Below, piece by piece: positions 49,125 to 52,224 of a stretch of 64,000 nt of DNA. The position numbers and the translations under genes are program-made. This DNA comes from Sphingomonadales bacterium (GTDB lineage Bacteria > Bacteroidota > Bacteroidia > Chitinophagales > Chitinophagaceae), in assembly GCA_016872155.1 (NCBI GenBank), contig VHBB01000005.1:90148-154147 (forward strand), given 5' to 3'. How positions within the stretch are numbered: the stretch's first letter is position 1; every line of letters begins with the position of its first letter. Below the pieces are notes generated by a model, which had not been told where the DNA came from, searched no databases, and saw only the letters and a list, made by a program, of their open reading frames with translations.

Positions 49125-50552
49125 GTGGTGCGAAGAAAAAAACCTGCTGTACTGCTACCCAATCTGCTCATCGAAGACTATGCGGCCGAAGGAAAATGCA
49201 TTGCCCGCCACGACGGTAAAGTAATTTTTGTAGAAGGGGTCGTACCCGGAGACCGTGCAGACCTTCGTATTACCAAGAGTAAAAAGGATTGGGCCGAAGC
49301 GGTGGCATTGAACATTGTCGAAAAGTCAACAGAAAGGGTTGATCCCTTTTGCGATCACTTTGGGGTCTGCGGAGGATGCCAGTGGCAAATGCTGCCCTAC
49401 GAAAAGCAATTACAGTACAAACAACAACAAGTCGAGCAGACCCTAAAGCGGATTGGTAAAGTAAACATCCCCGCTATTCAGCCTATTGCAGGGGCATCCC
49501 ATACGACCGAATACCGCAATAAGATCGAGTATACGTTTGGCAACAAACGATACCTGCTGTTCGCTGAGCTGGGAAACGAAGCCATTAGCGGGCTATCGAA
49601 TGTAGCCGGCTTTCATGCGCGTGGTTTTTTCGATAAGGTGGTAGACATCAACACTTGCTATTTGCAGGCATCTCCTTCTAATGAGATTCGAAATTTTATA
49701 AAGACGATGGCACTGCAAAAAGGATGGACCTTCTATGATAGCCGGGCCCACCAGGGCTATCTGCGCAATGTACAACTGCGACTTTGTCGCAGTGGCGAAC
49801 TTATGGTCAATGTGATCGTAGGAGAAGATAAGCCCGCCCAAACAAAAGCCTTGTTGAATGCTTTACTCGATCGGTTTGCCGGTATTACCACGCTGCTCTA
49901 CACGGTCAATACCAAATGGAACGACAGTATACAAGACCTGCAACCCATTGTTTTTTCGGGCAAGGGCTATGTAGAAGAATTACTCTATGGAAGCAGCCCC
50001 GACGAAGTATATCGATTCAAGATCGGACCGCTCTCCTTTTTTCAGACCAATACCGCACAAGCCGAGTGCCTCTACCGCTTAACAGCACAAGCGGCTGCAC
50101 TTACCGGTCAAGAAACGCTCTACGACCTTTACTGCGGCACCGGTAGTATCGGTATTTTTTTAAGCCGAAAGGCCGGTCGTATTGTAGGGGTAGAACAAGT
50201 GGCCGCTGCCATTGAGGATGCAAAAGAGAATGCCCGGATTAACCAGATTGCCAACGCTTCTTTTTTTGCAGGCGATGTAATTGATATTTGCACCGATTCG
50301 TTCTTCGAAAAACAGGGGCGTCCGGACGTGATCGTTACCGACCCGCCCCGTGCGGGTATGCACGAGGCGCTCATCGATTCGCTGTTGACCATCGCGGCTC
50401 CTACACTGGTCTATGTTAGCTGTAACCCGGCTACGCAAGCCCGTGACCTGCAACGGCTCGATTCGTTATACCAGATAACCCTGGTGCAATCCGTCGATAT
50501 GTTTCCGCATACCCATCATATCGAAAACATTGTCCGCTTAACACGCAGATAG
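49125..50552 (+). CDS. rlmD: 23S rRNA (uracil-5-)-methyltransferase RlmD/RumA-type
   Basis: TRAM-like N-term, CDHFGVCGGCQWQMLPYEKQLQYK Fe-S motif, LYCGTGSIGIFL, VTDPPRAGMH, VYVSCNPATQARDL; GTG start 49125 or 49128. Confidence 0.92.
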   Translation: MVRRKKPAVLLPNLLIEDYAAEGKCIARHDGKVIFVEGVVPGDRADLRITKSKKDWAEAVALNIVEKSTERVDPFCDHFGVCGGCQWQMLPYEKQLQYKQQQVEQTLKRIGKVNIPAIQPIAGASHTTEYRNKIEYTFGNKRYLLFAELGNEAISGLSNVAGFHARGFFDKVVDINTCYLQASPSNEIRNFIKTMALQKGWTFYDSRAHQGYLRNVQLRLCRSGELMVNVIVGEDKPAQTKALLNALLDRFAGITTLLYTVNTKWNDSIQDLQPIVFSGKGYVEELLYGSSPDEVYRFKIGPLSFFQTNTAQAECLYRLTAQAAALTGQETLYDLYCGTGSIGIFLSRKAGRIVGVEQVAAAIEDAKENARINQIANASFFAGDVIDICTDSFFEKQGRPDVIVTDPPRAGMHEALIDSLLTIAAPTLVYVSCNPATQARDLQRLDSLYQITLVQSVDMFPHTHHIENIVRLTRR

Positions 50553-50566
50553 CATAATTTTGTAGA

Positions 50567-51307
50567 ATGAGTGAGTTTCGATTTACGAGACCAGATAATT
50601 TTCCCCCCATTGTCAAGAATCTGATCATCATCAATGTATTGATGTATGTGGCGCAACTTACGTTGGCCGCTCGTTTCCCCTTTACCGAGTGGGTGATGCT
50701 CTGGCCTTTGATGCCCGAAAAGTTACAAGGCCTGCTGGCCGAAGCCGGCGTTATGAACAGCACCGGCCACTTTAGACCCTATCAGTTGCTTACGCATATG
50801 TTCGCACATGCGCCTCAGACCTTGTTTCATATTGTCTTTAATATGTTTACCCTGTGGATGTTTGGTAAAGTGCTCGAGACGGTTTGGGGCGGACCTCGCT
50901 TTTTAGTTTTTTATTTGGCCTGTGGATTAGGAGCCGCTGCGCTGCACCTGACCGTGCAATACATACGCTGCCAAGAGTTGCTGTCTTCATTTACGGCCGG
51001 CGATATCGTGGCCGTGCAGCAACAACTGGGTGCAGTATCGCCCGCCCTTGGGGCTAGTGGTGCGGTAATGGGCGTTATGGCCGCCTTCGCCTATCTATTT
51101 CCTAATACAGAGCTTTATATCATGTTTATTCCCGTGCCCGTCAAAGCCAAGTGGGCAATGCTGGGGCTAGCCGCCATCGATCTGTTTGGCGGTGTGGCGG
51201 GTGTTAGCGGAGACAATATTGCTCACTTTGCACATTTGGGTGGCGCCCTAACGGGTTTTTTAATGGTACTCTATTGGAACAAAACCAACCGTCAATCGTT
51301 ATACTAA
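50567..51307 (+). CDS. Rhomboid family intramembrane serine protease (catalytic residues present)
   Basis: LFHIVFNMFTLWMFG, GASGAVMG (Ser), AHFAHLGGALTGF (His). Confidence 0.93.
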   Translation: MSEFRFTRPDNFPPIVKNLIIINVLMYVAQLTLAARFPFTEWVMLWPLMPEKLQGLLAEAGVMNSTGHFRPYQLLTHMFAHAPQTLFHIVFNMFTLWMFGKVLETVWGGPRFLVFYLACGLGAAALHLTVQYIRCQELLSSFTAGDIVAVQQQLGAVSPALGASGAVMGVMAAFAYLFPNTELYIMFIPVPVKAKWAMLGLAAIDLFGGVAGVSGDNIAHFAHLGGALTGFLMVLYWNKTNRQSLY

Positions 51308-51324
51308 AGAATTAACCTGGAATC

Positions 51325-52224
51325 GTGTCTATGGGATACTCGTTAGGTGACAGTCAAAATAGTCTGACCCGCCTGCTCATTATCAATCTCGTTGTTTTTA
51401 TAACGCTGGCTCTTTGTAGAGCCTATTTCTTCTTTTTTTATCAAGATACCGCACAGATCGAAGTGGTTTTTAGCCAGCAGATCTTACAATGGTTCGCCCT
51501 GCCTTCAAGCGGTCAACAGGTACTGTATCGTCCCTGGACGCTGCTCACCGCCATGTTTACCAACAGGGGCGTCTGGATGATCTTGGGTCATATGCTTTGG
51601 CTCTGGGCCTTTGGATTTATTTTTCAGGACCTGAGCGGCCATCGAAAGATCATCGCGCTTTATTTGTACGGAGGATTGGCCGGATCGCTGGGCTATTTGT
51701 TAGGAGTTACGTTACTGCCGGCTACGTACAACGCCGGACTTTTTTATGGATCCGGTCCTGCGGTGATGGCCGTTGCCATTGCCACCACCATGCTCTCTCC
51801 GTATTACCGTCTCTTTCCTCAGTTAATGGGAGGCTTTCCACTTTGGATACTTTCCGTGATATATGTATTGATTAGTGTGGCGACCAAACCACTGCAGCAG
51901 CCACTTACCTACTTGCCACTGCTGGCCGGCGCTGCTATGGGATTTTTATTTATGCAGCTCATTCGAATGGGATACGACCTGAGCGAATGGATGAATGGCC
52001 TTTTTGATTGGGCAAACAACTTGTTTAATCCGGACAAGCCTTTACCCAAAAAGCCGGGTGTTCGTGATATGCATTTTTATAAGGCTACCCGTAAGCCGTT
52101 CGATAAAAAGCCCAAGCTTACGCAAGACAGAATCGATGCCTTGCTCGAAAAAATTCACCTGCAAGGAATCGATTCCCTGACAGCAGAAGAAAAAGAATTT
52201 TTAGAACGCGCCAGCCAGTCGTAA
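51325..52224 (+). CDS. Rhomboid-like protein lacking apparent catalytic Ser/His, with C-terminal cytosolic extension
   Basis: Rhomboid-like TM pattern (RPWTLLTAMFTNRGVWMILGHMLWLWAFGFIFQDL); GSGPAVMA and PLLAGAAMGF replace GASGAVMG and AHLGGALTGF. Confidence 0.85.
   Translation: MSMGYSLGDSQNSLTRLLIINLVVFITLALCRAYFFFFYQDTAQIEVVFSQQILQWFALPSSGQQVLYRPWTLLTAMFTNRGVWMILGHMLWLWAFGFIFQDLSGHRKIIALYLYGGLAGSLGYLLGVTLLPATYNAGLFYGSGPAVMAVAIATTMLSPYYRLFPQLMGGFPLWILSVIYVLISVATKPLQQPLTYLPLLAGAAMGFLFMQLIRMGYDLSEWMNGLFDWANNLFNPDKPLPKKPGVRDMHFYKATRKPFDKKPKLTQDRIDALLEKIHLQGIDSLTAEEKEFLERASQS

Follow-up and report, generated by a model that had tools for sequence, protein, structure and literature searches.

A predicted rhomboid pseudoprotease with a DUF6576 tail beside an active-looking rhomboid, and the repeated loss of its catalytic dyad in Chitinophagaceae

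Why should a bacterium keep, directly behind the gene for a rhomboid protease that looks active, a second rhomboid that seems to have lost its active site? The question is raised by a pair of genes, here called R1 and R2, in a 64,000-nucleotide stretch of Chitinophagaceae DNA (the window; Table 1). The genome to which the window belongs (1.79 Mb, 98% complete) was searched as a whole and holds only these two rhomboids, and, among named genomes, those nearest to it are metagenome-derived Chitinophagaceae, mostly from lakes judging by isolate names. Nearly all congeners carry a third rhomboid elsewhere in the genome, which this genome appears to have lost.

Table 1. Features of the rhomboid pair and of its upstream neighbour in the window
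Feature	Coordinates	Strand	Details
rlmD-like 23S rRNA methyltransferase gene (presumed)	49125..50552	+	ends 14 nt upstream of R1
R1, rhomboid intramembrane serine protease (active-looking)	50567..51307	+	246 aa; Pfam Rhomboid match; intact TM2 His88/Asn92 and Ser164/His223
R2, rhomboid-fold pseudoprotease (predicted) with C-terminal tail	51325..52224	+	299 aa, GTG start; Rhomboid and DUF6576 matches
R2 TM2 positions 85-89, M...H replacing His...Asn	51577..51591	+	alignment
R2 GSGP (142-145) replacing GASA, Gly144 at catalytic Ser position	51748..51759	+	profile alignment
R2 Leu199 at catalytic His position	51919..51921	+	profile alignment
DUF6576 tail of R2 (residues 265-298), probably cytosolic	52117..52218	+	hmmscan

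An active-looking rhomboid and its dyad-less neighbour

Both proteins belong to the rhomboid superfamily, with matches to Pfam Rhomboid (PF01694) over the six-helix core that score 90.4 bits for R1 and 43.4 bits for R2 against a cut-off of 22.6. The end of R2 matches DUF6576 (PF20216; 41.2 bits, cut-off 27.3), a named and Bacteroidota-associated family, which bears out the suggestion of an earlier note on this DNA that the tail resembles a domain of that phylum. Considering that other rhomboids have six helices and a cytosolic N-terminus, the tail of R2 probably lies in the cytosol. Neither an iRhom-specific nor a Derlin family appeared among the Pfam matches of R2 up to E = 1, and the comparison with iRhoms made in the earlier note therefore holds as a functional analogy and not as family membership. 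Searching the PDB with single sequences returned nothing for R1 and chance hits only for R2, and profiles of both dyad-less and intact R2s reached GlpG structures over TM1-TM3 only. AlphaFold monomers built from seven sequences (the window and six loci) had pLDDT values of 50 for R1 and 48 for R2, too poor to use.

R1 shows the GlpG-like pattern of an active rhomboid, with H88 and N92 in TM2, S164 in GASGAV and H223 in AHLGG. It thus has both the Ser/His dyad and the TM2 His/Asn pair by which active rhomboid proteases are recognized, and is active-looking on these grounds. R2 instead reads M85, H89, G144 and L199 at the four positions; it lacks the catalytic Ser of GxSx and the TM6 His, and it also lacks the His/Asn pair of the TM2 oxyanion hole. 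To place these residues, we aligned a profile of 35 dyad-less R2s with a profile of 17 intact R2 orthologues. The alignment spans the whole length (E = 9e-105) and pairs G144 of the window with the Ser of GASA and L199 with the His of AHLGG. An active-looking protease followed by an apparently dead homologue, with Gly for Ser and Leu for His, was what had first been read from the locus by eye; the profiles recover the same two substitutions and add the TM2 changes, which that account had missed.

In principle R2 could still be an enzyme, using a nucleophile that is unusual or has moved to another position. Ser143 of the window R2 adjoins the lost Ser144, and some relatives keep the Ser without the usual His or carry Thr in its place. 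Yet the R2s of the seven nearest species have no invariant His, neither Ser nor His reaches 75% conservation at any position among 67 dyad-less R2s, and the TM2 His has been lost too, so that we regard such an enzyme as very improbable. A relocated dyad, the finding that would have overturned the first reading, was rejected: the histidines of the window R2 fall only at positions 89, 106, 250 and 278, none of them in TM6, and the alignment with intact orthologues offers no dyad elsewhere. That R2 is catalytically inactive is well supported by these comparisons, and we infer that it would be inactive in vitro as well.

The gap of 17 nt between R1 and R2 given in the earlier note agrees with the open reading frame coordinates. 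The gene upstream of R1 we take to be rlmD-like, and the convergent gene downstream of R2 adenylate kinase-like, both names coming from family knowledge and not from a profile. The rlmD-like gene adjoins R1 in the large majority of Chitinophagaceae loci, where the order rlmD-R1-R2 is conserved. With gaps of only 14 and 17 nt and a conserved order, co-expression of R1 and R2 is plausible.

Spread of the tandem and erosion of R2 in Chitinophagaceae

In Bacteroidota the tandem of R1 and R2 is both ancient and widely distributed: it occurs throughout the family, order and class to which the window belongs, and in several other families of the phylum. Of 100 R2 loci, 90 have both genes in tandem on one strand, and several of the remainder are cut by contig ends. 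One locus of the same order (L036, genome G052) departs from the tandem order, with an R1-type gene downstream of R2 on the opposite strand.

Outside Chitinophagaceae, R2 keeps His/Asn/Ser/His in 53 of 54 sampled loci. The sole exception is L150 (genome G287), from the distant family f63; here the active site of R2 was lost independently and reads S, A, W and H beside an intact R1. Within Chitinophagaceae, R1 keeps all four residues in every one of the 91 loci of the tree set, whereas R2 does so in just 13 of 94. The TM2 His is kept in 14 of these 94 R2s, the Ser in 33 and the TM6 His in 47; Ser and His are both present in 27 and both absent in 41, and the TM2 Asn persists in 75. The replacements are diverse, with M, K, R, E, G, S, T, Q, D, L or P for the TM2 His, G, T, A, Q, Y, N or H for the catalytic Ser, and L, Q, M, I, P, Y or C for the catalytic His. 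The difference between intact R1 (91/91) and outside R2 (53/54) on one side and family R2 (13/94) on the other excludes chance. Misassembly of metagenomes is not the cause either, since some dead copies sit in genomes of one or few contigs (e.g., G401 and G413). A loss limited to the genus of the window was also considered and rejected, as 60 genera from the rest of the family show that it is family-wide. Of the two things that the earlier note proposed to look for in the phylum, conservation of the pair was found, while loss of Ser and His is not general to the pair and is concentrated in Chitinophagaceae. The observation of R2 loss is therefore confirmed as real, and it is larger than first described.

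To count the losses, we used a family tree of concatenated R1 and R2 from which the catalytic columns and their neighbours were excluded. Parsimony requires at least 16 changes in the Ser/His dyad on the best tree, falling to 11 once branches with support below 95 are collapsed; because the tree comes from a quick method and has open forks, these figures are a lower-bound estimate and not an exact count. Parsimony alone does not separate gain from loss, but loss is the natural reading given the intact R2 in 53 of 54 outside loci, and the R2 of the ancestor was apparently active. In Chitinophagaceae, then, R2 has lost the dyad independently at least 11 to 16 times.

This history bears on the idea that R2 acts like an iRhom, as an inhibitor or competitor that binds the substrates of R1 and restricts their cleavage. 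The core of R2 is still rhomboid-like, and iRhoms, themselves catalytically dead rhomboids, inhibit rhomboid signalling in flies (PMC3149277). However, if R2 was active in the ancestor, as it apparently was, inhibition was not the original role of the pair, and R2 matches no iRhom-specific family. We consider an inhibitor improbable.

Constraint on R2 and the company kept by DUF6576

Has R2 simply been released from selection? For close pairs of R2s lacking active-site residues, dN/dS is 0.03-0.15, and for R1 in the same pairs 0.01-0.13, values that are safe only as an order of magnitude because synonymous sites are saturated in several pairs. We then took the columns that are conserved at ≥90% outside Chitinophagaceae, 34 in all, and compared their retention inside the family. 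Among them, the TM2 His, the Ser and the TM6 His rank second, fourth and fifth least retained; by random rank, the probability that three named columns fall within the lowest five is 10/5984, or about 0.002. In contrast, the fold columns W71, G97, P159, G206 and G216 are retained at 97-100%, as are the main DUF6576 columns (D271, L274, K276, I277, G281, L285 and L293), the first six of which are invariant in 95 Chitinophagaceae R2s. Constraint has been lifted mainly from the active site and not from the whole protein. The strongest protection by selection falls on DUF6576.

A functionless relic drifting toward loss would account for the many different residues at the active site, as relaxed constraint predicts, and 8 of 150 sampled Chitinophagaceae genomes have no DUF6576 match. 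Such a relic should nevertheless show dN/dS near 1 instead of the observed range, and a decaying pseudogene is rejected on that ground; moreover, R2 is present as a full-length open reading frame in nearly all species, its tail and fold columns hardly vary, and DUF6576 is kept in the other 142 of the 150 genomes. We find the relic scarcely credible. Purifying selection on R2 is well supported by these sequence comparisons, and R2 probably does a job other than cutting.

The tail itself is nearly universal in the phylum, with DUF6576 in 291 of 297 sampled genomes. In one genus (g125, family f57), each of the six genomes sampled lacks it (G223, G263, G303, G315, G327 and G335). Stand-alone DUF6576 proteins of 84-95 aa, scoring 73-80 bits, occur in a family of the same class (f24; L065, L066, L069, L070, L072 and L073). 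Many Chitinophagaceae also have a further protein of ~270-370 aa whose DUF6576 tail scores far above that of R2, at ~60-86 bits (e.g., G406:C3:76658, G431:C1:898821, L067 and L071); of these, L067 and L071 were examined, and each is a rhomboid whose active site is intact.

The R2 sequences group together in a broad tree with weak support (72), and 27 sampled single rhomboids with DUF6576, from other classes, form one group (support 99) inside the R1 side. These single tailed rhomboids have an intact active site, and in three genomes (G127, G159 and G249) the DUF6576 rhomboid is the only rhomboid. Their neighbourhoods also differ: most single tailed rhomboids lie behind phosphoglycerate kinase, while the R1-R2 pair lies behind rlmD in Chitinophagaceae and often behind mutL in other families of the class, neighbour names that we presume from family knowledge of the sequences. 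An R1-type core and the tail thus occur either in one protein or split between R1 and R2. By the domain-fusion argument, their union in other lineages suggests that the R1 core and the DUF6576 tail work together, and a single tailed rhomboid could be the ancestral arrangement.

The main rival to a partnership of R1 and R2 would be an adaptor role like that of Bacillus subtilis YqgP (GluP), in which R2, independently of R1, serves membrane quality control, holding membrane clients and, much as Derlins do, passing them via DUF6576 to a processive protease such as FtsH. There is bacterial precedent, as YqgP is an FtsH substrate adaptor independently of its own protease activity (PMC7231995), and R2 retains the fold, the conserved Gly positions and a tail that would face the cytosol. 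But an R1-independent adaptor leaves unexplained both the strict linkage to R1 and the presence of the same tail on an active R1-type protein in other lineages. We rate it as unlikely, if a serious candidate.

A possible division of labour, and known systems

The best reading of these data is that R2 is a membrane-embedded pseudoprotease that supplies its tail to R1 or to the clients of R1. In such a pair, R1 would make the cut, and R2, retaining the rhomboid fold, could bind clients and affect the membrane locally, while its cytosolic DUF6576 tail would engage a further factor or present clients. With the work shared in this way, the active site of R2 would be dispensable, and many erosions in Chitinophagaceae would follow. 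Physical association of R1 and R2 and recruitment of a factor or client by the tail are both predictions drawn from the gene arrangements and conservation described above, and neither adjacency nor shared evolution is proof of binding. The retention of the TM2 Asn in 75 of 94 family R2s is not explained by the partner model. We put at about even the chance that selection maintains R2 as a pseudoprotease that partners an active R1 and brings DUF6576 to the pair. Somewhat more tentatively, Chitinophagaceae may hold a natural, family-wide class of bacterial rhomboid pseudoproteases that came from an active paralogue many times over (at least 11 dyad losses) and in which R2 is the dedicated noncatalytic subunit of a two-part rhomboid: R1 would cut, and R2 with its DUF6576 would recruit or gate.

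To our knowledge, rhomboid pseudoproteases have been studied almost only in eukaryotes, where the loss of activity is ancient. At the R2 locus, active, partly eroded and dead orthologues share one position across sister genera beside the same active partner, which makes both the path from rhomboid protease to pseudoprotease and the role that follows accessible to direct comparison. The interest lies in this recurrence of loss beside a constant active partner more than in the single dead R2 first noticed. Our search of the open-access literature turned up no account of either Bacteroidota rhomboid pseudoproteases or DUF6576, which does not prove that none has been published.

Derlins are rhomboid pseudoproteases whose tail recruits an AAA ATPase. 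They resemble R2 in being pseudoproteases with a tail, but the tail is a different one, and R2 has no match to the Derlin family. The iRhoms (RHBDF1/2) are likewise catalytically dead rhomboid-fold proteins under selection; unlike R2, they are eukaryotic, carry a large N-terminal domain and an iRhom homology domain, and lost activity anciently, whereas the loss in R2 is recent and repeated. A recent review treats pseudoproteases through these two eukaryotic examples (PMC12615303). GlpG of Escherichia coli and Haemophilus influenzae is the structural relative matched by the R2 profiles over TM1-TM3, but it is active (His150, Asn154, Ser201 and His254), and R2 has no equivalents of these residues. 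The best bacterial precedent for noncatalytic work by a rhomboid is YqgP, with its nonproteolytic adaptor function and cytosolic domain; YqgP is itself active and its extra domain is N-terminal, while R2 is naturally dyad-less, with a C-terminal DUF6576 and an active paralogue beside it. The window pair is an orthologue of the other Bacteroidota tandem rhomboids with DUF6576, in which R1 is likewise followed by R2 with the tail on R2. In those outside the family the R2 active site is full in all but one of the sampled loci, whereas the R2 of the window is dead.
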